Part shown: piece by piece, positions 11,696 to 48,793 of the stretch | Layout: every line of letters starts with the position of its first letter | How positions within the stretch are numbered: the stretch's first letter is position 1 | Assembly: GCA_947053925.1 (NCBI GenBank) | Contig: CAMRUG010000004.1 | Location: 1-64,000 of the forward strand | Direction: 5' to 3' | DNA length: 64,000 nt | DNA from: an uncultured Clostridia bacterium | Lineage (GTDB): Bacteria > Bacillota > Clostridia > Christensenellales > CAG-314 | Made by a program: the position numbers and the translations under genes | Notes under the pieces: generated by a model | Told to the model about the DNA's origin: nothing | The model's database searches: none | The model's input: the letters and a program-made list of their open reading frames with translations, nothing else

Positions 11696-11709
11696 TTACG
11701 ATGTTTAAA

Positions 11710-18806: not shown

Positions 18807-19212
18807 TAAACTGTTTTTTAGGTAAATGGTTGCCGTTTGAGCATATATTTAAAATTTATAAAGTGTGGAAACAGGCTAGTTAGGAAGATGTTTTAATGCA
18901 CGGAATTTATTTTATTATAACTAAGTTTTATTTGAAAATAAGTTTCAATGTCAGAACTTTTAATTGCAAAAATAGGGCATTTTTTATAAGTTTTGACGCT
19001 GATTTTAGCCGTTTTTGAGTAACTTTTATAACAAATTTACGGTTTTAGCGCCGATTTTACCAAAAAATTGCGCAAACTTGCCTGTTTTTGCCCCACAAAT
19101 GCCACGACTAAAATACCCGTAAATTCCCCGTAAATTTCCCGCCTTTTATCCCGTAAAATGCAGGAAATCCAATCGGGCATTGACACACAATTATAACAAA
19201 AATTTCAACCCC

Positions 19213-23436: not shown

Positions 23437-23669
23437 GCGTATTCATTTTAAAATAAAACTTTGCTTGTACAATGGAAGGTTTAATGGTACAAAGATTGTA
23501 TATAAGTTATGACTAGTTAATATGGTTGCGTTGCAAATTTTGTGATAGAATTAAAGCTGTAGTTGTTTTTTTGCTTGAGTCTTTAGATGATAGTATAAAA
23601 TTCAATCTTTAGTTTCTATGTGCAGTGTATTTATATTCAATAATGAAGAAATTTATAAAGGAGTATAAT

Positions 23670-27666: not shown

Positions 27667-28905
27667 ATGAATTTTATTGATTTATTCGCAGGTGCTGGGG
27701 GTTTATCAGAAGGATTTATTCAATCCGGATTTGTCCCAGTAGCACATGTTGAAATGAATGTTGATGCTTCTAATACGCTGAGAACTCGTGCTTGTTATCA
27801 CTATTTGGACAAAAATGGTCAGTTGGATACTTATTATAAATATGAAAAAGGTCTGATAACCAGAGATTACCTATATAACTTGGTTCCCCCAGCGATATAT
27901 GAGTCAGTAATCAATGCCGAAATTTCTGAAAAGACGATAAATGATATTTTTAAGCAAGTGGACGAACTGTTGCTGAAAAATGAAAATTGGAAAAAACAAG
28001 TCGATGTTATTATTGGAGGTCCTCCCTGTCAGGCGTACTCATTAGTAGGGCGTGCAGTAAAAGATGATAAAATGAGAGGGGATTATCGAAACTTTCTCTA
28101 TAAGATGTATTGTAGGTTTTTAAGACGGTATCGTCCTAAAATGTTTGTTTTTGAAAATGTTCCTGGCTTGTTAACAGCCAGTGGCGGAGAACATTTTAGA
28201 AATCTAAAAAAATATTTACAACATATAGGTTATAGAGTAAAGTGCCAAGAACTTAATGCAAAGGATTTTGGTGTGCTTCAAAGTCGCCGGAGACTTATTA
28301 TTATTGGTTGGCGAATAGGTGAAGAGCATTTTTATCCTGAGTTCGTCCCGATTAAACATGGTTATCTTGTAAGCGATATTTTGAATGACCTCCCTAAAAT
28401 GCAAGCAGGAGAAACAAAAAATAGATATCGCAAAGTTGCGCCAAGTATGTATTTAACCGAGTATGGAATTCGAACGGAAAAAGATGTGCTTACATTTCAT
28501 GTTGCTCGCCCGCATATTGAAAGAGATAGGGAAATTTATAGAAAAGTAATTAGTGCATGGAATGATGGGCATAAAAGGTTAAAATATTCGGATCTCCCTG
28601 ATGAATTGGCTACTCATAAAAACAAGTCAGCGTTTTTAGATAGATTTAAAATTGTTGAGGGGGATTTGCCGGCTTGTCATACAATGATGGCGCATATTTC
28701 TAAGGATGGACATTATTTTATTCATCCTGACATCAAGCAAGCAAGGTCAATTACAGTGCGAGAAGCTGCAAGAATCCAGTCATTTCCAGACAATTATTTC
28801 TTTGAAGGAAGTCGTACTGCAGCATTTACACAAATAGGTAATGCCGTGCCTCCTCTAATGGCAAAAGCCATAGCAACTGCACTTTTAGATCAATTGAATA
28901 AATAA
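27667..28905 (+). CDS. DNA (cytosine-5) methyltransferase (DrmMII-like candidate)
   Basis: NFIDLFAGAGGLSEGFIQSGF; GGPPCQAYS; FVFENVPGLL; QSRRRLIIIGWR; ARIQSFPDNYFF; QIGNAVPPLMAKAIA. Confidence 0.92.
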   Translation: MNFIDLFAGAGGLSEGFIQSGFVPVAHVEMNVDASNTLRTRACYHYLDKNGQLDTYYKYEKGLITRDYLYNLVPPAIYESVINAEISEKTINDIFKQVDELLLKNENWKKQVDVIIGGPPCQAYSLVGRAVKDDKMRGDYRNFLYKMYCRFLRRYRPKMFVFENVPGLLTASGGEHFRNLKKYLQHIGYRVKCQELNAKDFGVLQSRRRLIIIGWRIGEEHFYPEFVPIKHGYLVSDILNDLPKMQAGETKNRYRKVAPSMYLTEYGIRTEKDVLTFHVARPHIERDREIYRKVISAWNDGHKRLKYSDLPDELATHKNKSAFLDRFKIVEGDLPACHTMMAHISKDGHYFIHPDIKQARSITVREAARIQSFPDNYFFEGSRTAAFTQIGNAVPPLMAKAIATALLDQLNK

Positions 28906-28920
28906 CCACGGAGCATACAA

Positions 28921-31545: not shown

Positions 31546-31556
31546 GGAGAAAATTT

Positions 31557-33329
31557 ATGAGTTATAGTGTAATATTAAAAAAAGTTAGAATTAAAAATTT
31601 TAGATCTATTATTGATGAAACGATAGAATTTGATAGATTTAATATTTTTGTTGGTTTTAATGATAGTGGTAAATCTAATGTGCTAAAAGCATTAAACTTG
31701 TTTTTTAATGGAAAAACTGAAAATACACATGAGTTTAATTTTGATAGGGATTATAGTCAAAAGGGTATTACTGGTCAAGGAAAAGCAAAGGAAATAATAA
31801 TTGAGTTGGATTTATTAGTACCAAATAATTTTAGTGAAAAAGGCGTGAAAACATGGAAAAAAGTTTGGCGTAGAGATGGCTTGTTTTCTGATAATCTTAA
31901 AGATTTATTTAAGGAGTATTCGAAATGTGTTACTCTTTTTAATCGAATTATTTTTGAATATATTCCAGCAGTAAAAAGTTCGGATTATTTTCAAGATTTG
32001 TTATTGAAATTATATTATTCGATGATTCAATCAGCTAATAATGCACTTGCTACAATGAACAAATCATATTCTTCCACGTTGAAGTCATTAACTATTGGGC
32101 TGAGTGATAACATAAAAAAACAGTTAAATATTTTATCTACTGTGCAAATGCCTGATGAATTATCAATCTTATTTCGTAATATGAAAATAAGCACTAAAGA
32201 TAATTACGTACATAATATTGATTTAGACTATCGTGGCGATGGAATTAAGGCTCGGCACATACCATCGATACTGTTAAGTATTACACGAAATGTAAAAACA
32301 AATAGGCAAAAAAATTCAATAGATTATACGTATATATGGGGATATGAGGAACCTGAAAACGGAGTTGAGTTTTCAGCGTGTCAGAAATTGGCGGAAGAAT
32401 TATATGGATATAATAATGAAATTCAAATACTTCTAACGACTCATTCGCCTGCTATATATGGAATGAGAGATAGGGTAGGTGCTACTTGTTATTATACGTA
32501 TAAAAATGATAGAGGGGCATCTAAATATGAATCTGATTATAGCGTTGCAGAGTTGCATAATAAAATAGGACTCATGCCATTAATTGCTCCTTATATTGAA
32601 GAAAGACAAAGACTGTTGAGAGAAATGCAGGAAGAAAACAATCGTATTGTTAGCGAATTTCAAGCAGTAAAAGAATTGAGTCAAAAAGTTGTTTTGTACA
32701 CGGAAGGTCAGACCGACGCAATGTATATAGGAAAGGCATTAGAGGGTACTAAATATATTTCTCGCGTGCTTATCAACCCGAACCTTAAAGACGTAGATTA
32801 TGGAGACAGCAATCTAGAACAAAGATATAAATTATTACAGCAAGTGCCAGGTGTTAAAATATGTATATTTGATAGAGATAATACAAAATATATTATTTCG
32901 GAGGAGTATTGCAAAGGAGACAATAATACATTCAAATTTTCGATTCCAATACCTTCTTTTAGACAACAAGGAGATTTAATTTCTATTGAGCATTATTTTA
33001 AAGATGATGAAATAATGACATTTGATGAAAATGGAAGGCGATTATTTATGCTTCAAGAATTTGACAAACAAGGCAATACGCGAGATGATGTATATTTTTG
33101 TCAGTATCCTATTCGTGTGGGGATAAACACGCCGTTACATATATTAGACGGAAGAGATGAGAACTCGAAAGTTTTTAAGCGAAAGGGAACGGAAAACGTT
33201 GCTTTGTCTAAAAAAGCATTTGCTACTAATGTTATTACTCAAAAAGCAAATTTCAATTTTAAATTAGACGAATTCAAATTAATAGTAAATGTGATTGCTA
33301 AAATAATTGATTTAGTAGATACGAAGTAA
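31557..33329 (+). CDS. OLD-like AAA ATPase with C-terminal TOPRIM-like domain
   Basis: VRIKNFRSIIDETIEFDRFNIFVGFNDSGKSNVLKALNLFF; YIWGYEEPENGVEFSACQKLAEEL; ILLTTHSPAIYG; VVLYTEGQTDAMYIGKAL...ICIFDRDNTKY. Confidence 0.75.
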   Translation: MSYSVILKKVRIKNFRSIIDETIEFDRFNIFVGFNDSGKSNVLKALNLFFNGKTENTHEFNFDRDYSQKGITGQGKAKEIIIELDLLVPNNFSEKGVKTWKKVWRRDGLFSDNLKDLFKEYSKCVTLFNRIIFEYIPAVKSSDYFQDLLLKLYYSMIQSANNALATMNKSYSSTLKSLTIGLSDNIKKQLNILSTVQMPDELSILFRNMKISTKDNYVHNIDLDYRGDGIKARHIPSILLSITRNVKTNRQKNSIDYTYIWGYEEPENGVEFSACQKLAEELYGYNNEIQILLTTHSPAIYGMRDRVGATCYYTYKNDRGASKYESDYSVAELHNKIGLMPLIAPYIEERQRLLREMQEENNRIVSEFQAVKELSQKVVLYTEGQTDAMYIGKALEGTKYISRVLINPNLKDVDYGDSNLEQRYKLLQQVPGVKICIFDRDNTKYIISEEYCKGDNNTFKFSIPIPSFRQQGDLISIEHYFKDDEIMTFDENGRRLFMLQEFDKQGNTRDDVYFCQYPIRVGINTPLHILDGRDENSKVFKRKGTENVALSKKAFATNVITQKANFNFKLDEFKLIVNVIAKIIDLVDTK

Positions 33330-33397
33330 AGAATTTAAACCGATATTGGACGAATCGAATAGAAATGACTGTTATGCTAAAATAAGGTGAGTTATAG

Positions 33398-33427
33398 TTG
33401 ACATGATAGAAAATACTAGTTTATAAA
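33398..33427 (+). promoter_or_regulatory. Candidate promoter for the Mod-Res-drmABC operon
   Basis: TTGACA (33398-33403) N18 TATAAA (33422-33427), in a 300-bp intergenic gap. Confidence 0.5.
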
Positions 33428-33628
33428 AATGGCTAGAACAAGGGGGCATGTGTATCTTTATAGAGAATATGACATGCATACTTTTGTTGAAATCCTTCTA
33501 TGTTGCTAAGGATATTTACTAAGCTAGATGATTTAGATTTGAATGTGCTTTTCCCAGAAAAGAAAATGGTGATAAGCTTATATATAATTAATATGTGGGG
33601 TTTGGAATAACAAAAGGAGCACAATATT

Positions 33629-35149
33629 ATGCAAAAGACAGGAAAATTGGAGCTGACGTGGGTTGGCAAATATGAATCAAAAGTAATTGAGCCCAGGATA
33701 TTAGTTGAAAATCCTGAGTTGAGTTATGGTGATCCGAATAGTGAAAATATGCTCATTCACGGTGATAATCTTATTGCATTAAAGGCGCTTGAACAGGATT
33801 ATGCAGGCAGAATTAAGTGCATATATATCGATCCGCCGTATAATACCGGTTATGCATTTACCCATTACGATGACTCTGTTGAGCATAGTATTTGGCTTTC
33901 TTTGATGCGTCAGAGATTGGAAATATTATATACTTTGTTGGATGATGACAACGGTTCATTATGGATAAGTATTGATGATGACGAAAGGGATTATCTAAAA
34001 GTATTATGTGATGAGATATTGGGGCGTGCTAACTTTGTGTGCTCAGTTATTTGGCAAAAAAAGTATTCGCCACAAAACGATGCAAAGTGGCTATCAGATA
34101 ATCATGATTATGTTTTGGTTTACGCTAAAAATAAAGCGGTTTGGAGACCAAATTTGTTGCCACGCAGCGAGGAAGCGAATGCTAGATATAAAAATCCTGA
34201 TAATGATCCGCGCGGTCCGTGGAAATCGGGAGATATTTCTGTTAAAAGAGTAACGCCTAAAGACATTTACGAGGTAATTACTCCTTCTGGGCGGCGGGTA
34301 TTACCGCCTGCTGGTACTAGCTGGCGACTTTCTAAAGAAACATTTGATGATTATGTTGCAGATAATAGAATTTGGTTTGGACCTGATGGTAATAATGTTC
34401 CGTCTATAAAAAGATTTTTGTCTGAAGTAAAGGATGGTATGACATCTTTAACTATTTGGTTGCGTGAAGAGGTGGGAGACAATCAAGAGGCTAAACGCGA
34501 GGTAAAAGAGTTAAACAGTGATGATGTCTTTGATACGCCTAAACCAGAAAGACTTATAGAAAAAATACTAAAATTAGCCACTAAAGAAGGAGATTTAGTT
34601 CTTGATTCATTTCTTGGCTCCGGTACAACAGCGGCAGTTGCTCATAAAATGGACAGACGGTGGATTGGCATTGAACTTGGCAATCATGCTTATACGCATT
34701 GCAAAGTTCGTTTAGATAAAGTAATTGACGGCGAACAGGGTGGTATTTCTAAAGCGGTTGGTTGGAAAGGCGGTGGGGGATATAAGTTTTATGAATTAGC
34801 ACCCAGTTTGCTTGTGCCTAATCCAATTATTCCCGAAATTAAGCAAATCAATCCAGTATATACATTTGAAATGTTGTGCGAGGCAATTTGTAAATTAGAA
34901 GGTTTTAAATATAAGCCTAATGGCAGAATTCATGGACAATCAAGCGAAAAGAGATTTATCCACATTACGAAGGAATTTGTAAACGGTGAGTATGTAAATA
35001 GTCTTATTGCTACATTGGGTGAAGGACAGTCGTTGCTTATATATGGAACAAAGATTCAATCGGATTTAAGATTGCCCGATAATATTGTAGTAAAAAAAAT
35101 ACCAAAAGATTTGCTAGACAAGTGTACATTTGAAAGCGAGGTAAGATAA
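33629..35149 (+). CDS. Type III-like site-specific DNA (adenine-N6) methyltransferase, Mod
   Basis: LIHGDNLIALKALEQDYAGRIKCIYIDPPYNTGYAFTHYDD; LIEKILKLATKEGDLVLDSFLGSGTTAAVAHKMDRRWIGIELG. Confidence 0.9.
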   Translation: MQKTGKLELTWVGKYESKVIEPRILVENPELSYGDPNSENMLIHGDNLIALKALEQDYAGRIKCIYIDPPYNTGYAFTHYDDSVEHSIWLSLMRQRLEILYTLLDDDNGSLWISIDDDERDYLKVLCDEILGRANFVCSVIWQKKYSPQNDAKWLSDNHDYVLVYAKNKAVWRPNLLPRSEEANARYKNPDNDPRGPWKSGDISVKRVTPKDIYEVITPSGRRVLPPAGTSWRLSKETFDDYVADNRIWFGPDGNNVPSIKRFLSEVKDGMTSLTIWLREEVGDNQEAKREVKELNSDDVFDTPKPERLIEKILKLATKEGDLVLDSFLGSGTTAAVAHKMDRRWIGIELGNHAYTHCKVRLDKVIDGEQGGISKAVGWKGGGGYKFYELAPSLLVPNPIIPEIKQINPVYTFEMLCEAICKLEGFKYKPNGRIHGQSSEKRFIHITKEFVNGEYVNSLIATLGEGQSLLIYGTKIQSDLRLPDNIVVKKIPKDLLDKCTFESEVR

Positions 35150-35150
35150 T

Positions 35151-37802
35151 ATGGACGAAATAGTAAAAAATATAAGTTATGCTATGAGTTTGAGAGAGCC
35201 ACAAACGGAAGCTCTCAGTTATCTTGATGCAATAAGTGTTCATTGTGACTATAAACGTGATAATTTAGCAAACGTACAAGATGTTGCAACGGAATATTGC
35301 GAAGATAAGCACAAGATTAAGATTGATTTTGAATTTCCATCATTTTGTTTTGACATGGCAACTGGTATAGGCAAAACGCGCTTGATGGGCGCCGCTATTT
35401 ATTATTTGTACAAGACAAAGGGGTACAAACACTTCTTTATTCTTGCTCCTGGAAACACCATTTACGATAAACTTCGCAAGGAGTCTAATCCGGCGCACCC
35501 CAAATACATATTCAAAGGGTTAGAATCTGAGATGGGCAGACCAAAGGTGTATGATGGTGAGAATTATACTACATATCCAGTTAGGTATGTTCAAGGTGAA
35601 ATTGAAATAGAAAAGTCTTCTGAAATCCAGCTGTTTATTTTTAACATTGGCAAAATTTTTAACAGTAAAACGGATACTACATTTAAGTTTCACAAATTTC
35701 AAGAAACATTGGGTTCTTCATTTGCAGATGTTTTGTCACGGTTTAATGATCTTGTTATTTGTATGGACGAGGCACATCGTTACTATGCCCCTGCGTCTAT
35801 GAACGCGATTAACTACTTAAAACCAGTTCTAGGTTTGGAATTTACTGCAACGCCTAAAAGTCATAGCAATGTAATTTATAGTTATGACTTGGCGAAAGGT
35901 GCAGGTAAGTATTTGAAGATACCAACAGTTTTGGGCAGAACTAATATTGGTGGTTATAGTGCGGATGACATAGAAGAAATGAAAATCCGTGATGGCTTGA
36001 CATTGCATGAAAATCGCAAAAGGGTGGTTTATCAATATTGCAATGAAACAGGGTTGGATTATGTAAAGCCAATCGTTCTTATTGCCTGTAAGGACACAGA
36101 ACATGCCAAGAAAGTTCGCGCGTTAATTGATAATGACAATTTTGAACGTGGAAAATATTGCGGAAAAGTTATAGAAATCCATTCCAATATGAAAGGTGAA
36201 GAGTCTGAAGAAAATATTCGTTTGTTACTTTCCATCGAAAGATCTGATAACCCTGTAGAAATAGTCTTACACGTTTACAAATTGAAAGAGGGCTGGGATG
36301 TAAACAATTTGTTCACGATCATTCCTTTGAATGCGGCCAAAAGTGATATTTTGGCTTTGCAAACGATTGGTCGTGGCTTGCGCTTGCCGTTTGGTTTTAT
36401 TACAGGCAATGACGAAATAGACACACTAGATATAGTTGCACATGAGCATTATCGTCAGATTGTTGACGAAATCAAAGAAAGCAAAGTTTTTAGACAACGC
36501 AATTTAGATGAAGAAAAAATTGAAGAGACAGAGACATTTGAATTGAAACCAATAGTCGATGAAGAACAGTTGGATTTATTTGGAGAAATGTTGACTTCGA
36601 TAGGTGTGAAATCTTTTGAGCAAATTAATAATACTACAACTCAAGAACAACTATATCGAGAGTATACAAAAACATTTGGTAGAGATCCGAGAAAGAATAC
36701 AACTAGCGGAATGCAGCAAATGTCAATTTTTGATAGTATAGGTTCAAAACAACAACCTGTTGTGGAGTCTGTATCACAAGAAACGCTAACTATGTCTGAA
36801 GGAATAGAGCCTAAAACTAATCTGCCATTAAAAAAGGAAGAATTTGTTGCAAAACTAGATGAATATTGTAAGGTCGCGATTTCTGTACCTAAAATTCTTA
36901 TTCAGCCAAGTTCGGTGGTTACATTAAGACCGTTTGCGGTAAAGTGTAATATTATGGAATTTGAGATTGCTGCAGCTCAAATTGAAAGGTACGATGCGAT
37001 AAATGCGGAAAAATTGAAGTCGTTTGATGCTCAAATTCTTGAAGTGGAGAACCCGATAAATACCATTGCCTGCATGCTGTTGGACTGTGATGAATTGAGT
37101 GAGGTGTCTGTTGATGATGCTGAATACATTTTGGATGTCGTTAAGCAATATTTGGCACAAGTTGAAGGCACAGATGACGACAAGAGAAAAATCGTTCGTC
37201 GGTATGCAACGCTTATTCTTAATGACATTATTAAGCAAATACACACCCACATGGACAAGCAGACATATTATACGTCGGTTGTGCAAAAAGATTTAATCAT
37301 CTTTGGAAAGTCTGTAAAAACAATACGTAAGGATAGCGGAGTAGTGTCTTTTCGCAAAGAAATCGCTGACAAGAAAAACATTCGAAAGTATGTATATACT
37401 GGATATAAAAAATCGTATTATTCGCAAAATGGATTTGATAGTGATACAGAAAGGGCATTTTCTGTTATACTTGAGGATGACAAAGAAGTTTTACGTTGGA
37501 TAAAACCACCTCTAAATCAACTTGGCATTTTTTGGCAAGCTGGTCAGCAGTACAACCCAGACTTTTTAGTGGAAACAAATGACGGTAAGTACATGATTGA
37601 AGTAAAAGCACGCAACGAAGTGAGTACAACAGAAGTTCAAATCAAAGCACAAGAAGGTGTAAAGTGGTGCAAATATGCAACACAAGTGGATTTCGATAAT
37701 AAAAAATGGAAATATAGACTTGTTACAGACGACTGTATAAATATTGGTAATACGTTTAAGTACACAATCGGACTCGCTGTAAATATTAATTCGGAGGAGT
37801 AA
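35151..37802 (+). CDS. Type III-like restriction helicase/nuclease, Res
   Basis: CFDMATGIGKTRLMGAAIYYLY; LVICMDEAHRYYAPASMNAINYLKPVLGLEFTATP; LQTIGRGLRLPFG; C-terminal NPDFLVETNDGKYMIEVKAR (PD-(D/E)XK-like). Confidence 0.9.
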   Translation: MDEIVKNISYAMSLREPQTEALSYLDAISVHCDYKRDNLANVQDVATEYCEDKHKIKIDFEFPSFCFDMATGIGKTRLMGAAIYYLYKTKGYKHFFILAPGNTIYDKLRKESNPAHPKYIFKGLESEMGRPKVYDGENYTTYPVRYVQGEIEIEKSSEIQLFIFNIGKIFNSKTDTTFKFHKFQETLGSSFADVLSRFNDLVICMDEAHRYYAPASMNAINYLKPVLGLEFTATPKSHSNVIYSYDLAKGAGKYLKIPTVLGRTNIGGYSADDIEEMKIRDGLTLHENRKRVVYQYCNETGLDYVKPIVLIACKDTEHAKKVRALIDNDNFERGKYCGKVIEIHSNMKGEESEENIRLLLSIERSDNPVEIVLHVYKLKEGWDVNNLFTIIPLNAAKSDILALQTIGRGLRLPFGFITGNDEIDTLDIVAHEHYRQIVDEIKESKVFRQRNLDEEKIEETETFELKPIVDEEQLDLFGEMLTSIGVKSFEQINNTTTQEQLYREYTKTFGRDPRKNTTSGMQQMSIFDSIGSKQQPVVESVSQETLTMSEGIEPKTNLPLKKEEFVAKLDEYCKVAISVPKILIQPSSVVTLRPFAVKCNIMEFEIAAAQIERYDAINAEKLKSFDAQILEVENPINTIACMLLDCDELSEVSVDDAEYILDVVKQYLAQVEGTDDDKRKIVRRYATLILNDIIKQIHTHMDKQTYYTSVVQKDLIIFGKSVKTIRKDSGVVSFRKEIADKKNIRKYVYTGYKKSYYSQNGFDSDTERAFSVILEDDKEVLRWIKPPLNQLGIFWQAGQQYNPDFLVETNDGKYMIEVKARNEVSTTEVQIKAQEGVKWCKYATQVDFDNKKWKYRLVTDDCINIGNTFKYTIGLAVNINSEE

Positions 37803-37804
37803 GC

Positions 37805-38344
37805 ATGGAAGATAATGAAATGTTAAGAAGGGCACAAATGTATATTGAAGCCATGTCTCAAGGCATTAATCCTGTGACTGGAGAGGTTGTTTGTGATAAT
37901 GACACATTGAATAATATTAAAGTTTCTAGGTGTTTATTTTTTGTTAATGATATTTTGAAGGAACTTATTTGCAATAATGGAAAGCTCCATAGAGAGAAAG
38001 TTCCAAGAGTACAAAAACAAAATTTTGTTTACAATGAACATTTAATGCAACAAGTTACTGTTTGTAATACGCCAATATCACTTTCAGAAATTATTAGAAA
38101 TATTCTAAAAATATATGGTGACGAGACCAAACTAACTTATAAAATGGTGGCTGAGTTGCTGTTAAATAAAGGAATATACATAAAAAATGCAGAAAACAGT
38201 CCTAAGTATATTGCAACTCCAGAATCTAAAAAGTATGGAATATATACTGAATTAAGGCACACAATGCAAGGCGATAGATTGATTACATTGTATAATAGTG
38301 AAGGACAAAAATATCTTTTGTCATTGCTAAAAGATTTGAAATAA
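37805..38344 (+). CDS. Uncharacterised protein between Res and DrmA
   Basis: MEDNEMLRRAQMYIEAMSQGINPVTGEVVCDNDTLNNIKVSRCLFFVNDILKELI...; tightly spaced in the operon. Confidence 0.7.
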   Translation: MEDNEMLRRAQMYIEAMSQGINPVTGEVVCDNDTLNNIKVSRCLFFVNDILKELICNNGKLHREKVPRVQKQNFVYNEHLMQQVTVCNTPISLSEIIRNILKIYGDETKLTYKMVAELLLNKGIYIKNAENSPKYIATPESKKYGIYTELRHTMQGDRLITLYNSEGQKYLLSLLKDLK

Positions 38345-38361
38345 ATATTAAGAGAGGAATT

Positions 38362-41300
38362 ATGGATAAAAGTTTCCTTGAGGCGGAAGTTCGTCAAAAA
38401 ATAATAGAAGCATTGAGAGTTGATTTGGTTGGTCCAAGTAGTGAGGACGAAATATTGGACGAGAACCCAATGTTTGAGTATTTAACGGGCATGTTGTATC
38501 CTCAAGTGTTGGCAGATGCTGATTTGCTTGAACAAGAAATTGATGGTGATATACAACATGATATAGATTGTGACTTTACACCACAACCGGACGAAGACGA
38601 TAACGAACCAATGGCTGCAACCAAGTTTAAACAGCAGTCATCTATTGGTATGAGCTTTTATTTGGCAAAATCAACGCAAAGTATGATGGTTCGAGTCTCT
38701 TGGGGGGATTATATAAAGGGTACCGAGACTGAGACCAACGAAGAGAGGGAAGAGAGGTCTAGAATAATTTATAAACGACTTGATATGCTTGACGATATTC
38801 GTATTGATCTCTCAACAAATAACCGTGTGCAAGATATTGCACTAACGCAGGATCCCTGTTTGCACTTGCATGTGGTAAAGTTTGGCTTGGAAAATAATTA
38901 TATGTTGGTAACAATACATCTGACCAACAAGCGTCCAAGGGGCAATTCTCCATTGGAGTCCATAATATTCCAAGCAAAATTGGAAGTCACATTAGAATCT
39001 CCCAAGGAGTATTTTGTTGCAGAAAATACATGTAGAGGAATACTTGCTGCTGATGAATTTTACTATGCACAACGTCCTATTTTCGGTCGCGGAAGAGGGT
39101 GCGCCGTTATGTGGGATAAGATAGATGCTGACCATGCTTCTAAAGTATACACGACATTTATTCCAGAATATGAATTTCCTGGTGTCAAGGCCGTAATAGA
39201 CGGTTTTTCAAAAGATCACTTTTTGATGAGTTTCTTGGCAAAGCCTGCGAATAAAGCGCAGTCCATTCAACGTTTGAAAGAATTGTACAAAGCCTATAAG
39301 TATTGGATAGAATACACCATGGAAAAAGATGGTAGAATGCAAGACACGGAATTTAGACAAAAAGTCGGGAACGAAGCTATAGCAAAATGTCATGATGCAT
39401 TAAGAAGAATAGGTGAAGGGATAGCACTTATCGAAAGTAATGAAATCGCTTTTGAATCTTTCAGTTTTATGAATAGTGTAATGGCGATGCAACGTAGCAT
39501 TGGAGCATATGCTAAAAAACATGGAAAGGGGATAAAATGCTCTTTTGCTGATTTTATGGATCCGCGCAAGGAAGAAAACAACTTTTGTTGGAGACCATTT
39601 CAAATTGCCTTTATTTTGATGAATATTAAAGGTATCATTGAACCGACCTGCGAAGACAGAGAAATTGTTGATCTATTATATTTCCCGACAGGCGGTGGTA
39701 AAACCGAGGCTTATCTGGGACTCATTGCTTTCACTATTGCTCATCGTCGGCTGACAAATGGAATGCATAGTGAGTTTAACAATGATGGGGGAGTTACTGT
39801 AATATTAAGATATACTTTGCGTTTGCTTACTACACAACAAAGAGACAGACTTACAAAAATGGTAATTGCTGCCGAATACGTGAGAAGAAGTAATATGAAA
39901 CGCTATGGGTATGAACCCATCAGTATTGGATTCTTTGTTGGTGGACAAGTTACTCCAAATAACTTTGATGAATTGAAGGACTCTTCCTCTGACCCAGGCG
40001 CTGCGAAATATAAAAGGGGCTTACTTTATAAACAGCTGCTCACATGCCCGTTCTGTGGAAAAAAACTAGAAGAAAAGAACTTTCATATTGATCATGATGC
40101 GAAAGAAGTTAAGATTTATTGCGATGACAAGGACTGCCTTTTCTATAAGTATGGATATTCTAATACTGGAATAACTCTGTCTATTCCCGTTCATATGATA
40201 GACGAAGAAATATATAGAAAATGCCCAACCATAATTCTTGCAACTGTCGATAAATTTGCTGTGCTACCGTGGAAGCCCGAAGCGAATTCTTTATTTGGAA
40301 GAATTCATCAAAAATGTACGCGTGATGGGTATATTGCTATGGGAGAAAAGGTACACAAGATACATCAGGAGACGGAAGAGTTGGCAGCATCGAAATTAAT
40401 AGATGTAAAGCCTTTTGCGCCACCAGAGTTGATAGTTCAGGATGAGTTGCACTTGATTACTGGACCATTAGGCACAATTTATGGAGCATACGAGACAATA
40501 ATTCAAGACTTGTGTACATATGAAAAGGATGGCAAAAAAATTAGACCCAAATATATTGTTTCTACAGCAACTATAAAGAATGCCCCAGAACAAATACGGT
40601 GTTTGTACGGACGCAGAAACTCGATGCAGTTTCCGCCAAATGGTTTGGAAATAGGGGATAGTTTCTTTATAAAAGAGATTCCAACGGAAGAAAAGCCTTT
40701 TCGGAAGTATGTCGGAATTAGTGCAAGTGGACAATCTATGAAGACAACCACTTTGCGCACATATGCAATAATTTTGCAAACGGTCCATGAACTTGAGAAA
40801 GTAGAAAAGTATAAAGACGTGCTCGATCCATATTATACGTTGATTGGCTATTTTAACAGTATTAGAGAGCTTGGTGGCACAGTTCGTTTACTGCAAGACG
40901 ACATACCTAAAAGAATAAATCGCTTAAAAAAGAAATATAAGTTTAATTCGCTCAGATATATTAATAATAAAATTGAGATAACATCACGCATAAGTTCAAG
41001 TAAAATAGCAGAAAGTCTTCAAAAGTTGGAAATACCGATGGATAAGAAGGAATGTTTGGATACTGCAATAGCGACAAACATGATTGCGGTTGGTATGGAC
41101 GTGGATCGTTTGGGCATGATGACAGTAATGGGGCAACCTAAGCAAAACTCCGAGTATATTCAGGCTACCAGCCGTATTGGTCGTCAACATCCAGGTGTTG
41201 TATTTACAATATATAATCCTTATAGACCAAGAGACCTCTCGCACTATGAAAATTTTGTCGGGTATCATTCTCAACTGTATAGATACGTAGAAGGTACAAC

Positions 41301-41715
41301 GGCTACGCCATTTTCTGCTCGTGCAAGAGATCGTGTATTGCATGCATTAGTTATTGCTGCAATTAGATTGAAATTTCCACAGTTTGGCGAAAATTCGACA
41401 GCAAACAATATCGATAGTTTAACTGATTATCAAAAAGAAATTGTCATAGACACTATATTAGATAGGTTGGCTATCGTGAATCCTAAAGCTCGTGAAGATA
41501 CAAAAAGAGAAATTGAAATTTTTATTGGTGACTGGAAAAGTTTGGCTGCGCAAAGAAAACCTTTGACATATTTTGTAGCAGTTAAGAGCTTGGACAATTA
41601 CAATAGGTTGATGAATCGTTACAGTGATAACTGCGCTCCGACAGAGAAAGGAACCCTTAACTCAATGCGAGAGGTTGAAGCATCGTCGACGTTGTATTAT
41701 TTTTTGGAGGATTAA
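38362..41715 (+). CDS. drmA: DISARM helicase DrmA
   Basis: VGPSSEDEILDENPMFEYLTGMLYP; DLLYFPTGGGKTEAYLGLIAFTIAHRRL; PELIVQDELHLITGPLGTIYGAYE; EYIQATSRIGRQHPGVVFTIYNPYRPRDLSHYENF. Confidence 0.9.
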   Translation: MDKSFLEAEVRQKIIEALRVDLVGPSSEDEILDENPMFEYLTGMLYPQVLADADLLEQEIDGDIQHDIDCDFTPQPDEDDNEPMAATKFKQQSSIGMSFYLAKSTQSMMVRVSWGDYIKGTETETNEEREERSRIIYKRLDMLDDIRIDLSTNNRVQDIALTQDPCLHLHVVKFGLENNYMLVTIHLTNKRPRGNSPLESIIFQAKLEVTLESPKEYFVAENTCRGILAADEFYYAQRPIFGRGRGCAVMWDKIDADHASKVYTTFIPEYEFPGVKAVIDGFSKDHFLMSFLAKPANKAQSIQRLKELYKAYKYWIEYTMEKDGRMQDTEFRQKVGNEAIAKCHDALRRIGEGIALIESNEIAFESFSFMNSVMAMQRSIGAYAKKHGKGIKCSFADFMDPRKEENNFCWRPFQIAFILMNIKGIIEPTCEDREIVDLLYFPTGGGKTEAYLGLIAFTIAHRRLTNGMHSEFNNDGGVTVILRYTLRLLTTQQRDRLTKMVIAAEYVRRSNMKRYGYEPISIGFFVGGQVTPNNFDELKDSSSDPGAAKYKRGLLYKQLLTCPFCGKKLEEKNFHIDHDAKEVKIYCDDKDCLFYKYGYSNTGITLSIPVHMIDEEIYRKCPTIILATVDKFAVLPWKPEANSLFGRIHQKCTRDGYIAMGEKVHKIHQETEELAASKLIDVKPFAPPELIVQDELHLITGPLGTIYGAYETIIQDLCTYEKDGKKIRPKYIVSTATIKNAPEQIRCLYGRRNSMQFPPNGLEIGDSFFIKEIPTEEKPFRKYVGISASGQSMKTTTLRTYAIILQTVHELEKVEKYKDVLDPYYTLIGYFNSIRELGGTVRLLQDDIPKRINRLKKKYKFNSLRYINNKIEITSRISSSKIAESLQKLEIPMDKKECLDTAIATNMIAVGMDVDRLGMMTVMGQPKQNSEYIQATSRIGRQHPGVVFTIYNPYRPRDLSHYENFVGYHSQLYRYVEGTTATPFSARARDRVLHALVIAAIRLKFPQFGENSTANNIDSLTDYQKEIVIDTILDRLAIVNPKAREDTKREIEIFIGDWKSLAAQRKPLTYFVAVKSLDNYNRLMNRYSDNCAPTEKGTLNSMREVEASSTLYYFLED

Positions 41716-41716
41716 A

Positions 41717-43480
41717 ATGGCGAGTTTTTTTGATAGAAATAAAATTGGAGAAGTTAGACCAAACCAATTGATTACTACATTTGGTCCAGGATCAATAATT
41801 GATGCGGTAAGAGATTCAGTCACGATTTTAGATACGGATTATTGGAAAGAAAAAGGCAAAAAAATAATTGACGGTAGGCTTGCTGCATATTTAGGAGTAT
41901 CACACTTTTATATGCCTAAGACAAGCGACAAAGGAGATTTGCCAGTAGTATCTTTTCCAAACTATCACGTTTGTTCGAATGCTAAATGTAACAATTTATT
42001 TGATATTCGTGAAGATTTTGATGAGGAACGATACAAGAAGTTCGGAGCAACTTGTCCCAAATGCGGCAACCAAGCATATCCTTCAAGATTTATAGTGATG
42101 TGCAATAATGGTCACATGGACGATTTTCCTTGGAATTGGTGGGTTCACTATGGTGCAAAAACAAATTGTAAAGGACATTTTAGATTATATTCTAATGGTA
42201 ATACTTCAACATTGGCAGATATGACAGTTGAGTGCCTAGATTGTCATCAAAAACGTAGTATGAGCGGGGCAACTCAACCAGATAATTTTACTGGATTAAA
42301 TTGCTCTGGACGCCATCCTTTTCGTCCTCATCATAAATGTGAGTCTTGCAAAGAAGGAGTTATACCTTCGCAGCGTGGAGCATCTAATGTCTATTTCCCA
42401 GTTATTAGAAGTGCGATTTCTATCCCTCCGTGGACTGATCCATTGTACAATTTGATAGACGAACACTTACGATTTATTGAACAAATGGAAGAGGTTGGCG
42501 TGCCTGATGCCACCGGCAGGGCTTATCAACAATATTTTTCAGACAAATACACTCGCGAGCAATTCGACAGGGCGTTGGAAAAACGTCGCCAGAATATCAA
42601 GGAGTTTTCAGAAATTAAATTGATGGAGTATCAAGCAATTACTCATCATAATGATCCATCATATGCTTCAAACAAAAAGCATTTTAAGGCTGAAGAAGAT
42701 GCTGTTCCGGCATGGTTAAAAAAGTATTTTTCTAGAGTTATTAAAATCACTAGGTTGCGTGACGTAATGGTGTTACTGGGTTTCACGAGAGTTACAGCCC
42801 CTGATCCAGATGCAGAAATGCAAGTTAATATTGTTCCGCTTAATAGAGCCCGAAGTGAAATGTGGTTACCTGCTGTGGAGATTAATGGCGAAGGTGTTTT
42901 TATAGAATTTAATAAAGACGAAATTGCAAAATGGGAAAAAGAAACTAATATTAGACTTTTATCTAAGCAATATGAACTTTGTTACGAACAATACTGTGTA
43001 TCGCATGGTTGGACACAGACTGTAAAGCGTGGTGCAAAGTATGTTTTATTGCATACGTTCGCGCATTTAATGATAAAAGAAATGTCATTACAATCTGGAT
43101 ATTCATCGTCTGCGATTCGTGAAAGGGTATATTGTAATGATGATATGTGTGGCATTTTGCTGTATACTGGCAGTGCGGATAAAGAAGGCTCTCTCGGCGG
43201 TCTGGTTGAACTTGGCGGTTATGAGCATTTGGCGGAGCTACTTAAAGGTGTTTTAGAAAACGCATTGGTATGTACGAATGATCCGGAATGTATGACGAAT
43301 ACGCCTACAATAGAGAAGTTCAACGGCGCTGCTTGTCACTCTTGTTGCATGATTTCCGAAACGGCTTGTGAAAATGGCAATAGATTGTTGGACAGAGGAT
43401 TAATAGTGCCATTATCTGGTAGGGAGGACCAATCATTTTTCAAACAATTGGTGGTGGAGTTATGTCATTTAGAAGTATAA
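41717..43480 (+). CDS. drmB: DISARM DrmB (DUF1998)
   Basis: IGEVRPNQLITTFGPGSIIDAVRDSVTILD...RFIVMCNNGHMDDFPWNWWVHYG...KYVLLHTFAHLMIKEMSLQSGYSSSAIRERVYC...ACHSCCMISETACENGNRLLDR. Confidence 0.92.
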   Translation: MASFFDRNKIGEVRPNQLITTFGPGSIIDAVRDSVTILDTDYWKEKGKKIIDGRLAAYLGVSHFYMPKTSDKGDLPVVSFPNYHVCSNAKCNNLFDIREDFDEERYKKFGATCPKCGNQAYPSRFIVMCNNGHMDDFPWNWWVHYGAKTNCKGHFRLYSNGNTSTLADMTVECLDCHQKRSMSGATQPDNFTGLNCSGRHPFRPHHKCESCKEGVIPSQRGASNVYFPVIRSAISIPPWTDPLYNLIDEHLRFIEQMEEVGVPDATGRAYQQYFSDKYTREQFDRALEKRRQNIKEFSEIKLMEYQAITHHNDPSYASNKKHFKAEEDAVPAWLKKYFSRVIKITRLRDVMVLLGFTRVTAPDPDAEMQVNIVPLNRARSEMWLPAVEINGEGVFIEFNKDEIAKWEKETNIRLLSKQYELCYEQYCVSHGWTQTVKRGAKYVLLHTFAHLMIKEMSLQSGYSSSAIRERVYCNDDMCGILLYTGSADKEGSLGGLVELGGYEHLAELLKGVLENALVCTNDPECMTNTPTIEKFNGAACHSCCMISETACENGNRLLDRGLIVPLSGREDQSFFKQLVVELCHLEV

Positions 43481-44166
43481 AAACAGAATTGATTCTGAAT
43501 TCCATTATTGAAGAGTTAAATGCCTTGGGCAAAGGTGATTTCTCTGTTTCGGCTTTTCCTCACTCATTAGAATTAATTTCGAATATTTTCCCACAGATTA
43601 GTGATACTCAAAAGATTTTTTTATTGAATCTTGTATTAGATGCATATACTTGCGGAGAGAGTGATGAAGTGGAACTGGTTGCAACAGTCCCAGTGTCGTT
43701 TGCGTTGAAGTCTAGGCGCACGCAAGACGTAGCTCACCAAATTTTACACGATGCAAAGCAAAGCGTATTAATTACTGGTTATTCAATCTCTGATTTTATT
43801 AATGAATTTATTGACGAAATCGTTGCAAAAAGCAACAAGGGTGTTTTTGTGAAAGTATTTATTAATGATATAGATAATCAGATTGCGGTTGAAAAATTGG
43901 TGCGTTACCAAAGTAGATTTTTACAAATTTATAACTATACAAATGATGAGGATAAAATGTCTGCGCTACACGCCAAAGTAATTAGCATTGATGGCGAGGT
44001 CTCCTTGATATCATCGGCAAATTTATCATATTATGGAATGAGTGGTAACATAGAAATTGGTAGTTTAATTAAGTCAAAACGAATAGCAATGCAAATCAGT
44101 GAGTTATTTACTCAATTGATTTTTCAAAAAGTCTTAAAATTAGTTGTTAAGAAAGTAAAAAACTAA
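43462..44166 (+). CDS. drmC: DISARM DrmC (phospholipase-D-like)
   Basis: SVLITGYSISDF...ALHAKVISIDGEVSLISSANLSYYGMSGNIEIG (HxKxxxxD). Confidence 0.88.
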   Translation: MSFRSIKTELILNSIIEELNALGKGDFSVSAFPHSLELISNIFPQISDTQKIFLLNLVLDAYTCGESDEVELVATVPVSFALKSRRTQDVAHQILHDAKQSVLITGYSISDFINEFIDEIVAKSNKGVFVKVFINDIDNQIAVEKLVRYQSRFLQIYNYTNDEDKMSALHAKVISIDGEVSLISSANLSYYGMSGNIEIGSLIKSKRIAMQISELFTQLIFQKVLKLVVKKVKN

Positions 44167-44173: not shown

Positions 44174-44202
44174 TTGACAATCGAACGAATGTTCTATATA
44201 AT
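44174..44202 (+). promoter_or_regulatory. Consensus promoter with embedded LexA/SOS box driving the mobility module
   Basis: TTGACA (44174-44179) N17 TATAAT (44197-44202); CGAACGAATGTTCT at 44182-44195 between the boxes. Confidence 0.8.
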
Positions 44203-44225: not shown

Positions 44226-44741
44226 ATGAAAGAGATATTGTACGAGTTTTATGATGGGCATGTGGAGTGTTTGGAAGTTGAAGATGCAGTAGCGGAAGTG
44301 TATGGGCAAATTGTTACAGAAGAGGAGCGCAATGAACGCAAAGAAACGCGCAGGCATCAGTCTTTGGAAGTTATGTTAGACGCAGGTTTTGACTTTGCGG
44401 ACGAAAGGGCAAGCATTGATTACATCCTTGAACAGCAAGAGTTGCGCGAAAGCGAACGGCGGTTTAGGCAGCAATACAATCAGTGTGTTAGGGCAATGTA
44501 TAGGGCTCTCAAAAAGTACATTCCCAAACGTCAAACGCAAGCATATTTGTTGTACACGCAAATGTATTTTTCAAAGGTCGAAATTGCCCACCTTATGGGC
44601 ATAACGGAAGGTGCTGTCCGTAAGTTACTTTTGAAAGCGAAAGCAAATGTTAAGAAGTTAAAAGACAGATTGCAGGAAATCCGCAAAATGCCTTATGTAC
44701 CGCAAACTGAAAGTTTACACACAAACGCAAATAAGCAATAA
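44226..44741 (+). CDS. Sigma-70 region 4-like HTH protein of a mobile element
   Basis: C-terminal RQTQAYLLYTQMYFSKVEIAHLMGITEGAVRKLLLKAKANVKKLKDRL. Confidence 0.7.
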   Translation: MKEILYEFYDGHVECLEVEDAVAEVYGQIVTEEERNERKETRRHQSLEVMLDAGFDFADERASIDYILEQQELRESERRFRQQYNQCVRAMYRALKKYIPKRQTQAYLLYTQMYFSKVEIAHLMGITEGAVRKLLLKAKANVKKLKDRLQEIRKMPYVPQTESLHTNANKQ

Positions 44742-44956
44742 AAATAATTTTAAAATATGATAGGGGGGGACGATTTTTCGCGCCTCTCGTGGCTTTATAA
44801 TAGAGGGTAATAAAAGTTTATGACGCTTAACGGTAATTAACTTTTGTTAAATACTTACTACTACATCGTATCACGTTGGTTATTTTGCTTTGCAATAAAT
44901 AGTGTTCGTGTACGATATTATAGAGGGACATACAATTTAATATTTTTATCCAAGGG

Positions 44957-44990
44957 TGATTGTACAAATTTGCAGTCGCCCTTTTTGTAT
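44957..44990 (+). terminator. Candidate terminator/attenuator upstream of the relaxase
   Basis: AGGGTGATTGtacaaatttGCAGTCGCCCTTTTT. Confidence 0.5.
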
Positions 44991-45146
44991 ATATACATTT
45001 TACAACAAGGAGGTGATGCGTATGAATGTTTTGTAAAGATTTTAATGCAAAAATGTAGTAAAAACAGCGAGCAAACGTGTGGGATTGGTGCAACAAATAC
45101 ATTGAAATTTGTAGCAGGATAAGTAAAATGTAATTCGTGTTGCAAA

Positions 45147-46502
45147 TTGCATTTTAGCGGTTCGGTAGCGGGAAACCCGCCTGCCGTTTGCTTGCACAAG
45201 AAAAAGAAGGAGGAAAAGAACATAAGCAATCAACCAATTATTTTCAATATTAGTTATACACCGTATAAAATTCGTAGAGATGCTTCGACATACGAACAAG
45301 AAAAATTCAAACAGCAAAGAGCCTTTTACGAGATGTCCGGAGACGGTAACAATATCTATAAATACATAACGAACGATCGCAAATTAAACGGAGAAAACAG
45401 CAAGACAGAAACACGTTCGATGATACAGTATTTTGAAAAGTCTACAGGCGTTTTCAACGATCAAGGAGGCATAATACGTCAGCAACTACACGAAATACAG
45501 CAACGCGCAAAAGCCCATAAAAACCTATGGCACGGCTTCATATCTCTCAACGAGGAAATGAGTTACAAAATAGACTGCGCGGAAAAGTGCGTACACTTAG
45601 TAAAACGCACCTTTGGAGATTTATTCAAAGATATGGGTTTAGATCCTAAAAACATAGACCTAATCTGTGCCTTACACAAAGATAAGCCTCATCATCTGCA
45701 TATACACTTTTGGTTTGCGGAAAAAGAACCTAAATGCAAATACCGTGGCAAAAATTTAGAGTACCGCCATAAAGGCAAAATACCCAAAGCGGTAATAGAC
45801 AAAATGCACATTAGACTAAATCTCTACATAGACGAAAGCCATCCCGAAATATATAATTCCCGAGATGTAGCCATCAAGGAACTTAAACGGATGACTTTTA
45901 ATAAAAGAATAGTAGAATACAACGACGTCAAAAAAGCGGTAATAGCATTAGCAAAGGAAATACCTAAAACAGCAAGTTTCTTTTACGGCAAAAGGGACAT
46001 GGAACTGTACCGAGATAAAGTAGATAATATTGCTCATTTATTAGTCCTACACGATAGACGCATAGCCAAAGCCAACGCTAACTTTTATATTAACATTTCT
46101 CAACTAAATAAAAAAATAAAAGCACTATGTAATACCGACCACGCAGGAAAGCACATAAACCACTACAAAATTGACAGTAATAACATTACCGTTACCCAAG
46201 ACTTAATACAGGACTTCAAACATAGACAAGGCAATGTAATATTACAAGCAGTTAAACAAATAAAGGGAGAACTGTCTCAAACACGCATACACCACAAGGT
46301 AAACGATAAACCCTTAAAACGCCGCCTTGCCATATCTCACCGTAAAGTAGGCAAACTGTTCGACAACTTCATTCTATCCTACATAGACGAAATACAAACA
46401 GCAGAACAAGAGTATTCTAAAAAGATACAGCAAGAGGAAAACGACATAGACGAGCAAACCAACTCTGCCAAGCAAAACACTAAATACAATTACGGTAAAT
46501 AA
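45147..46502 (+). CDS. MobL-like relaxase (mobilization protein)
   Basis: LWHGFISLNEEMSYKIDCAEKCVHLVKRTFGDLFKDMGLDPKNIDLICALHKDKPHHLHIHFWFAEKEPK (HxHxxF). The true start may be ATA at 45222, after AAGGAGG. Confidence 0.75.
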   Translation: MHFSGSVAGNPPAVCLHKKKKEEKNISNQPIIFNISYTPYKIRRDASTYEQEKFKQQRAFYEMSGDGNNIYKYITNDRKLNGENSKTETRSMIQYFEKSTGVFNDQGGIIRQQLHEIQQRAKAHKNLWHGFISLNEEMSYKIDCAEKCVHLVKRTFGDLFKDMGLDPKNIDLICALHKDKPHHLHIHFWFAEKEPKCKYRGKNLEYRHKGKIPKAVIDKMHIRLNLYIDESHPEIYNSRDVAIKELKRMTFNKRIVEYNDVKKAVIALAKEIPKTASFFYGKRDMELYRDKVDNIAHLLVLHDRRIAKANANFYINISQLNKKIKALCNTDHAGKHINHYKIDSNNITVTQDLIQDFKHRQGNVILQAVKQIKGELSQTRIHHKVNDKPLKRRLAISHRKVGKLFDNFILSYIDEIQTAEQEYSKKIQQEENDIDEQTNSAKQNTKYNYGK

Positions 46503-46667
46503 CTTCCTGATTCGGTTGAATAACTTTGCAAAAACCTATTGACACTTCCCCGCAAAAGATTTATACTAAATGCGTAAATCGTATATATACTGTTTGGTAA
46601 AAACTGCAATAACTAAAAAAGCAGTTAAAAGAATCGTCTTAACGGCGAAACAAAGGAGGTAAAACCT

Positions 46668-46982
46668 ATGGCAAAGCAATGGACAGTGGAAGAAGTAGTA
46701 GAGTACGAAAGAACGCATAAGCCGAAAGGACAAGTCTACGGCAAGTATGGAACAATAGCCAAGCATTACCTTGAACAGCATCAAGGAATAGAGATGACAA
46801 TGATAGGGCAAATTCCCGATTACCTACACAACATAGATAAGCAAGCGGACGAGATGTACGATACTCTGTATGAGCAGTTGTCTAAACGCCCCGAATACCA
46901 GAAGACGGGAGATTACATTGACGACCTTCGCAAGCAAACGGAAATGCAAAACTTTATCGAACACGAAATACTTACTACTTAA
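46668..46982 (+). CDS. Hypothetical mobile-element accessory protein
   Basis: MAKQWTVEEVVEYERTHKPKGQVYGKYGTIAKHYLEQHQ...; RBS AAAGGAGG; promoter TTGACA N17 TATACT at 46539-46567. Confidence 0.65.
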   Translation: MAKQWTVEEVVEYERTHKPKGQVYGKYGTIAKHYLEQHQGIEMTMIGQIPDYLHNIDKQADEMYDTLYEQLSKRPEYQKTGDYIDDLRKQTEMQNFIEHEILTT

Positions 46983-47006: not shown

Positions 47007-47246
47007 ATGGTAACACGCAAAGAAGACACGCCGCAAAGGTTGGCTAACCGCAAGTACGAAGAAAAGAACAAACAAAAACGCAAGGACGCAAGCGGAAATT
47101 TTCAAACGATGATTCCGCGCGAAAAATTCGAGGAAATTAACGCGTTCCTTAAACAAAACAACATCACAAAAGTATACTTCATTTTGCAAGCCTACGAAAT
47201 TCTTAAAACACAACACAATCAATCAAACACAAAAAAGGAGGAATAA
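47007..47246 (+). CDS. Small basic mobile-element accessory protein
   Basis: MVTRKEDTPQRLANRKYEEKNKQKRKDASGNFQTMIPREKFEEINAFLKQNNITKVYFILQAYEIL. Confidence 0.6.
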   Translation: MVTRKEDTPQRLANRKYEEKNKQKRKDASGNFQTMIPREKFEEINAFLKQNNITKVYFILQAYEILKTQHNQSNTKKEE

Positions 47247-47289: not shown

Positions 47290-48597
47290 ATGGTAAAAGA
47301 TACATTTTCTAACAACACACAAATTACAAACGATATGCTTGCCCAAATACTTGCAACTTTACAGGCGCAGGGAGAGGCAATCAAATCGCTTATGGGCGAA
47401 CAAGCGCCCGCAACAATTATTCAGTCAAACGCGGTATCAAGTCGTGGCAGACGGGCAAAAATGGGCTTCAAATTTACTAAAAAGGAGATAGACATTATGC
47501 CATCAAGATACCAAAACATATTTGCGTGCGGAGACACAATAATACCGTACCGTTACCACAAGGGCGTTTACGAAGTAAACTACCGCCGCAAAGGAATTCA
47601 CATTTATGCTTGCGCAAGCACGATTGAAGAAATGAAACGCCGTTTTTTAGACAAGTTAATGAGAGGAGAACAAGTAAACCACAACAAACCGCAGCGCGCA
47701 GCAACATACAACACACCCAAAACTTACAACAAAACAACCAAACCGCCGCAAGGCATACCGTTTGCTCACTACGTGGACGAGTGGTTGGCGTCCAAGCGTT
47801 TTAACGTTAAGGAAAGCACCTTTAAGGAATACCAACGCGTAGCAGATACGCACTTAAAACGGGATTTTATGGGCGTTACAATGGCGGAGATGACACGCAG
47901 CCGCGTGCAGGAATACTTGTTCGGCTTTGTAGAACAGGAAAAGCACCGCACTGCGGAAAAACTGTCGGTTGCGTTTTCGTGCATTTTCGAACTTGCCGTA
48001 GAGGACAAAGTGGTGGAATCCAACCCGATGAAGAAAATCAAACTTCCCTACGCCGAACGTAAAAAAGGTTCCGCCTTTACCTTGAAGGAGGAAGCGGAAC
48101 TTGTAAACATATGCCGGAAAAATTTGCAGTCCGATTGGGCACACGCGTTTTTAGTGCTGGTGTACTTCGGCTTGCGCAAGTCGGAATTAACCAGCATAAA
48201 AATAAAGGACGAAAACCTAAGTTGTATATCGAGTAAAACCCGTTTGGGTAGGAAGGAAGTTGTTCGCACAATACCCTTTACGCCGGTATTCAAACGCGTA
48301 CTGCCGTATGTGGATTTTAACAGGGCAAAGCGCGCCAATCCCAACACGATGCAAACGGCAATGAGAAAGCATTTCCCTAACCATCACATACACGAACTGC
48401 GCTATACGTTTATAACGCGCTGTAAGGAGTGCGGCGTTGCGGGCGAAGTGGTTATGCAGTGGGACGGGCATTCCTACGACAGGGATGTTGTAACATCGGT
48501 AGTGGACAGAGGCTACACCGACTATTCGCAAGAATTTTTGCAGCGTCAAGCCTTAAAAGTGGATTACGAATTGCCGACACTAAAATACGACGAATAA
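47290..48597 (+). CDS. Tyrosine recombinase/integrase
   Basis: PFAHYVDEWLASKRFNVKESTFKEYQRVADTHLKRDFMG...LVLVYFGLRKSELTSIKIKDEN...HIHELRYTFITRCKECGVAGEVVMQWDGHSYDRDVVTSVVDRGYTDYS. Confidence 0.9.
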   Translation: MVKDTFSNNTQITNDMLAQILATLQAQGEAIKSLMGEQAPATIIQSNAVSSRGRRAKMGFKFTKKEIDIMPSRYQNIFACGDTIIPYRYHKGVYEVNYRRKGIHIYACASTIEEMKRRFLDKLMRGEQVNHNKPQRAATYNTPKTYNKTTKPPQGIPFAHYVDEWLASKRFNVKESTFKEYQRVADTHLKRDFMGVTMAEMTRSRVQEYLFGFVEQEKHRTAEKLSVAFSCIFELAVEDKVVESNPMKKIKLPYAERKKGSAFTLKEEAELVNICRKNLQSDWAHAFLVLVYFGLRKSELTSIKIKDENLSCISSKTRLGRKEVVRTIPFTPVFKRVLPYVDFNRAKRANPNTMQTAMRKHFPNHHIHELRYTFITRCKECGVAGEVVMQWDGHSYDRDVVTSVVDRGYTDYSQEFLQRQALKVDYELPTLKYDE

Positions 48598-48676
48598 CCC
48601 CACAAAATTTACCCACATTTTTATCCCCGTAAATTCCCGCAAAAATTACGGGGTAAAAGATAAAAGTGGTTTAAAA

Positions 48677-48718: not shown

Positions 48719-48793
48719 TGGCTAGGGTAGCAGGATTTGAACCTGCGAATGACGGAGTCAGAATCCGTTGCCTTACCGCTTGGCTATACCCCA
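48719..48793 (-). tRNA. tRNA-Gln (anticodon CUG)
   Basis: Reverse complement TGGGGTATAGCCAAGCGGTAAGGCAACGGATTCTGACTCCGTCATTCGCAGGTTCAAATCCTGCTACCCTAGCCA folds as a cloverleaf with loop TTCTGAC. Confidence 0.95.

Follow-up and report, generated by a model that had tools for sequence, protein, structure and literature searches.

A predicted host LexA operator in the promoter of a sigma-like regulator gene on a DISARM-carrying mobilizable element

Direct repression of mobile elements by LexA is established, GIL01 and the integrons being examples, and CTXphi represents a further case. In GIL01, a temperate phage of Bacillus thuringiensis, the P1 promoter is directly repressed by host LexA (PMC4551915). 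Integron integrases are likewise SOS-controlled, as reviewed in PMC9578287. Induction of the ICEs ICEBs1 and SXT is RecA-dependent and proceeds through element-coded repressors that are inactivated through RecA (PMC9578287). In clostridia, boxes of the form GAACN4GTTY are the norm (PMC4234289). A search of the open-access literature found no report of a LexA box in connection with DISARM or with mobilizable elements. The locus described here belongs to an uncultured Clostridia bacterium of the CAG-314 lineage (GCA_947053925.1), whose genome comprises 1.65 Mb in 34 contigs at 95% completeness. The window, meaning the whole stretch of DNA that was analysed, covers 64,000 nucleotides (positions 1 to 64,000 of contig CAMRUG010000004.1, forward strand).

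The promoter at 44174–44202 and its palindrome

The 59-bp gap between the end of drmC (44166) and a 171-codon sigma-like gene starting at 44226 is occupied by a forward-strand sigma-A-type promoter (44174–44202) that matches the consensus at 12 of 12 positions. The TTGACA hexamer lies at 44174–44179 and TATAAT at 44197–44202, so that the whole reads TTGACA-ATCGAACGAATGTTCTA-TATAAT with a 17-nt spacer. Within this spacer lies the predicted LexA operator (SOS box) CGAACGAATGTTCT at 44182–44195, a GAACN4GTTC-type palindrome overlapping the promoter elements in the manner of an SOS promoter. An earlier, sequence-only reading had proposed precisely this arrangement of a LexA-type box inside a TTGACA-N17-TATAAT promoter, and the sequence at 44174–44202 bears it out exactly. 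The same reading had used the dinB promoter of the window (17479–17507, forward strand) as an internal reference. Its layout, with a LexA box in the spacer, is as described, with TTGACA starting at 17479 and not at 17480. Counted from the first T of the -35 hexamer, the dinB box, AGAACAAATGTTTT (17489–17502), begins after 10 nt and the 44182 box after 8 nt; thus the two layouts are alike but the boxes are offset by 2 bp. The dinB layout is kept in six relatives, whose promoters display a GAACN4GTTC-like palindrome with 0–1 half-site mismatch in the arrangement TTGACA-N-box-TAAAAT.

The sites were scored with a position weight matrix built from 17 lexA boxes and 23 boxes of a core sigma-like gene, all from other species of the genus and with the own genome excluded. 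The sites at 44182 and 17489 (dinB) both reach 18.26, while the runner-up in the 64 kb scores 11.2. Under an order-2 Markov background, about 1.0 site per Mb is expected at a score of at least 18.2, which corresponds to 0.07 per 64 kb. The window contains 12 near-consensus promoters (TTGACA-N16-18-TAnnnT, both strands), and a high-scoring site is present in exactly two of them, those at 44182 and dinB. A genome scan for the box, proposed by the sequence-only reading as a check, showed boxes at lexA, uvrB and dinB and no enrichment of the loose pattern, since raw genome-wide counts of GAACN4GTTY amount to 22 matches against 36 for the reversed pattern. The evidence for the box therefore resides in its score and position, not in its count. 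This lack of enrichment, together with the approximately 1.7 sites of such score expected by chance in 1.65 Mb, would be compatible with a palindrome that fell into the promoter fortuitously. However, the probability that any one of the 12 near-consensus promoters would contain such a site by chance is estimated at about 2e-4 and the layout agrees with that of the dinB promoter, making a fortuitous origin barely credible.

Host LexA and the distribution of the box

The host genome contains a single lexA (C2:181043), whose product retains the HTH, the SAGAG cleavage motif, the GTSM serine and the VKR lysine, and a single recA (C2:173029). A host devoid of lexA had been named as grounds for dropping the LexA assignment; the gene is present and its product looks cleavable. 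Boxes resembling AGAACAAAAGTTTG lie upstream of lexA at a fixed distance in 17 of 18 same-genus species, and uvrB of the host displays the box CGAACACTTGTTCT. The canonical SOS genes of the host with the same box type are lexA, uvrB and dinB, and no LexA box was found at its recA. The palindrome at 44182 is accepted as a LexA operator on the basis of its equal top score with dinB, the cleavable-looking LexA, the presence of RecA, the boxes at lexA, uvrB and dinB, and the dinB layout in relatives. Positions 44182–44195 are therefore very probably an operator of the host LexA, as judged from sequence, and DNA damage would probably switch on the sigma-like regulator gene.

The 13-mer CGAACGAATGTTC has three copies in the genome, located at 44182, at a core sigma-like gene and in a filamentous-phage-like prophage, all of them ahead of sigma-like genes. 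The core gene (G000:C2:29053-29475, 141 aa) is preceded by the same 14-mer as found at 44182 (G000:C2:29022), the identity extending over 18 bases, AATCGAACGAATGTTCTA. A GAACN4GTTY box accompanies this gene in 23 of 24 same-genus species, with the centre varying between AAAA, AAAT and GAAT among its orthologs (L069–L093). In the prophage, which lies near a tRNA-Ser (C1:261780), CGAACGAATGTTC is positioned downstream of a promoter and ahead of the sigma-like genes. The recurrence of the 13-mer before sigma-like genes on all three occasions could suggest the operator of a different regulator common to such genes, for instance a repressor of their own, instead of LexA. This is highly improbable, as the GAACN4GTTY box is also found at lexA, uvrB and dinB, genus-wide at lexA and dinB, and the orthologs of the core gene show the same kind of centre variants. 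With LexA as the preferred ligand, sigma-like regulators appear to stand under host LexA in three places, once at a core gene and once on each of two mobile elements that are unrelated to each other. It is conceivable, although doubtful, that these form a shared SOS circuit in which the core SOS-induced sigma-like regulator and the related ones on the two elements might act on each other's promoters. The comparison also brings to light a conserved, apparently SOS-controlled sigma-like gene of the genus that has no assigned function.

Several further observations concern these loci. Upstream of the box of the core gene (L001, L068; orthologs L069–L093), near the -35 element, there is a conserved palindrome, CTGACAnnCwGTTGTCATAT. 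The prophage (L113, G000:C1:255000-274999) extends over approximately 5026–15872 of that locus and encodes an integrase, two sigma-like proteins, a Zot-like ATPase and a replication initiator; its LexA box, CGAACGAATGTTCC, lies 3' of its promoter. A search for exact CGAACGAATGTTC in 60 relatives returned one match outside the genome; it lies in G046, across the start of a 175-aa ORF that is unrelated, and was set aside.

The element, its regulator and its mobility genes

Copies of CCCGTAAATT occur in the window at 19116, 19127 and 48626 only, and bound an element of roughly 29.5 kb. The left end (19116–19157, forward strand) comprises the first two repeats and a partial copy at 19150, presumed to be integrase arm sites, and at the right end (48617–48661, forward strand) the remaining copy is placed inside an inverted repeat. 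The cargo consists of DISARM, a type III restriction pair and LmuA/LmuB genes, all on the forward strand and the defence genes assigned through PADLOC profiles. The LmuA/LmuB-type (Lamassu) defence genes extend over 23625–27254. The DISARM genes drmMII, drmD, drmA, drmB and drmC fill 27667–44166, interspersed with genes for an AAA ATPase and type III Mod/Res, and point towards the SOS promoter. The PADLOC matches for drmA, drmB and drmC (E 0, 4.5e-90 and 1e-77) and for drmMII (3e-169) provide a DISARM core plus methylase. The AAA ATPase and the Mod/Res pair (31557–37802) are located within the DISARM operon, which pairs drmD with drmMII. No T4SS genes were seen between 19 and 48.6 kb, and the element therefore looks mobilizable and not self-transmissible. 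An integrase and a relaxase (the latter recognized through homology to L109) without an own T4SS are the hallmarks of an integrative mobilizable element (IME).

A tRNA-Gln (CTG) gene (48719–48793, reverse strand) has its 3' end facing the island, 122 bp from the end of the integrase gene, and is a candidate integration target. Its 3' end was considered as an att site and rejected, as no duplicate of it was found at the left end. Neither an att core nor an empty site was found, and flanking synteny is not kept in relatives. These retain GNAT-MrnC-RlmB, with no tRNA detected alongside, and what follows their dinB gave no match anywhere in the window. The promoter of the tRNA-Gln gene (48833–48805, reverse strand; TTGACA-N17-TATACT) displays in its spacer AAACAAAAGTTT, a weak LexA-like palindrome scoring 10.7.

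The gene directly behind the SOS promoter (44226–44741, forward strand) encodes a 171-aa sigma-70 region-4-like regulator. It is preceded by a leader ORF of 3 codons (44218), whose stop overlaps the start codon of the regulator gene. The product matches PF08281 weakly, as well as phrog_11138, a phage family without assigned function. Because the matches are to sigma region 4 alone and not to regions 2 and 4 as in a sigma-70 factor, and lie below the Pfam cut-off, the protein is named a sigma-like regulator and not a sigma factor. Regulator matches are present in 58 of 396 genomes of the order. At many of the homolog loci examined the gene heads an integrated filamentous-phage-like element that also encodes a serine recombinase or integrase; a Zot-like ATPase or a rolling-circle replication gene is seen in some of these. 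In two prophage-like elements, of G199 (L178 8592-9200) and G031 (L179 7964-8599), the gene of an S24-peptidase LexA-like repressor lies upstream of the homolog. A family that heads mobile elements, twice behind such a repressor, provides a precedent for damage-responsive control of this gene type, which looks like a mobile-element regulator. Among 29 homologous sigma-like genes of other genomes no GAACN4GTTC box was found, apart from one loose AAACN4GTTT match, which argues that SOS control belongs to this element and not to the gene family. The closest regulator homologs, in G139 (L169, G139:C46, 4220–9936), likewise lie behind cargo-like genes (HSP90-like ATPases, radical SAM), at contig ends. 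The terminator listing shows none between drmC and the regulator, so that read-through from DISARM could make the regulator without SOS, bypassing LexA.

A 400-nt gap separates the regulator from the relaxase. It includes two direct repeats (repeat D1, 44796–44941, forward strand) that share TATWATAGAGGG at 44796–44821 and 44916–44941, and which are put forward, speculatively, as candidate target promoters of the regulator. They are followed on the same strand by a terminator-like hairpin (44952–44983; RNA fold -19.7 kcal/mol, z -4.3) composed of a 13-bp stem and then a U-run. Immediately 3' of the hairpin there is a short ORF, ATGCGTATGAATGTTTTGTAA (45004–45036), with a full Shine-Dalgarno, possibly encoding a leader peptide. 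The MobL-type relaxase gene (45147–46502, forward strand) has no Pfam match of its own and gave no match against solved structures. Its product is 42% identical to that of L109:8620-9936 (G004), which matches PF18555 MobL above the cut-off and is followed by coupling-protein (T4CP), VirB4 and pilin genes. At the start position (45220–45222) the sequence reads ATA-AGC-AAT-CAA where relatives display ATG/GTG-AGC-AAT-CAA, and with ATA in this place relaxase expression may be low. A good Shine-Dalgarno precedes the ATA (45210–45230). The hairpin AGCGGGAAACCCGC upstream of the relaxase (45167–45190) is common to the G004 element (L109 10420-10441) and is a candidate oriT.

Behind the relaxase, a near-consensus promoter (46539–46567, forward strand; TTGACA-N17-TATACT, 11 of 12 positions) without an SOS box precedes an operon of three forward-strand genes. 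These encode a TnpV-like protein (46668–46982; PF14198, E 1.9e-9), a small protein of 79 aa with no assigned function (47007–47246) and a tyrosine integrase (47290–48597; PF14659/PF22022; phrog_1 E 1e-32). The open frames of integrase and relaxase are intact, with 435 and 451 codons, respectively. No close relatives of relaxase, regulator or integrase were found in viral contigs, nor of the integrase in genome contigs, and the element itself likewise has no close relative among the sequences searched.

The sequence-only reading had expected DNA damage or phage attack to derepress the regulator and possibly relaxase and integrase along with it. All the genes lie on the same strand 3' of the SOS promoter, and terminator-like sites allow read-through or anti-termination, and behind the hairpin there is the short ORF with its Shine-Dalgarno; a single long SOS transcript through regulator, relaxase and integrase could mobilise the island directly on damage. 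The strong hairpin with its U-run, the 400-nt gap, the box-free 11/12 promoter of the integrase operon and the relaxase ATA oppose this, and such a transcript is considered unlikely. It is thus unlikely that the SOS box governs relaxase and integrase directly, and plausible that it would do so indirectly via the regulator. What stands of the proposed mobility-module promoter is a box in the promoter of the sigma-like gene, on an element that has an integrase and a MobL-related relaxase; the part concerning direct control of these two genes is not supported.

A further possibility is that LexA binds the box but the regulator no longer governs mobility, either because the element is immobile or because the regulator has other targets, for instance the DISARM cargo or host genes. 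The relaxase ATA, the lack of a clear att duplication at the tRNA and the lack of a close integrase relative in public collections are in keeping with this. It is rather doubtful, however, given the intact frames of integrase and relaxase and the restriction of the CCCGTAAATT repeats to both element ends.

Proposed mechanism and comparison with known systems

The reading that is preferred, and regarded as reasonably probable overall, leads from a host LexA operator through the regulator to promoters of the element and hence to mobility; the sequence lends good support to LexA binding and to the identity of the predicted target gene, and the action on mobility is inferred. Host LexA would sit between the -35 and -10 elements and repress the consensus promoter, directly controlling a single gene, that of the sigma-region-4-like regulator (44226). 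RecA filaments formed on damaged or incoming DNA would promote LexA self-cleavage, upon which the promoter would fire. The regulator would then act in trans, its likeliest targets being promoters on the element itself, such as those around the 44796/44916 repeats and at 46539. Expression of relaxase and/or integrase would rise as a result, and the integrated element, together with the DISARM and Lamassu-type genes that it carries, could excise and transfer with the aid of a helper. If damage does activate the regulator and thereby the element, injury of the host by phage or antibiotics would render a defence island mobile, tying immunity cargo to spread. The locus also offers a small, testable case, in the draft genome of an uncultured-looking lineage, of a mobile element apparently held by host LexA instead of an element-coded repressor.

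Strong profile matches of drmA, drmB, drmC, drmD and drmMII relate the cargo to known DISARM systems. It differs from these in the type III Mod/Res pair and AAA ATPase inside the operon, and DISARM is here the cargo of the element. The box agrees with the LexA regulon of Clostridioides difficile, where GAACN4GTTC/T boxes lie in promoters of a clostridial host (PMC4234289); by word search, phage, conjugative element and transposon are absent from the text of that paper. As with ICEBs1 and SXT, transfer of an integrated element could rise on DNA damage. In contrast to those elements, which employ repressors of their own, the sequence here predicts direct use of a host LexA operator. In integrons, too, a gene of a mobile DNA system has a LexA box in its promoter, although there the integrase gene is the LexA target, whereas here the integrase has a separate, box-free promoter. 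In GIL01, similarly to what is predicted at 44182, the early promoter of a mobile element is held by host LexA through a Gram-positive SOS box and not by an element-coded repressor. The extrachromosomal phage GIL01, however, has two LexA sites, both located downstream of the start, and employs the co-factor gp7, whereas the element described here is integrated and mobilizable, with one site in the promoter spacer and a sigma-like regulator as its predicted target.
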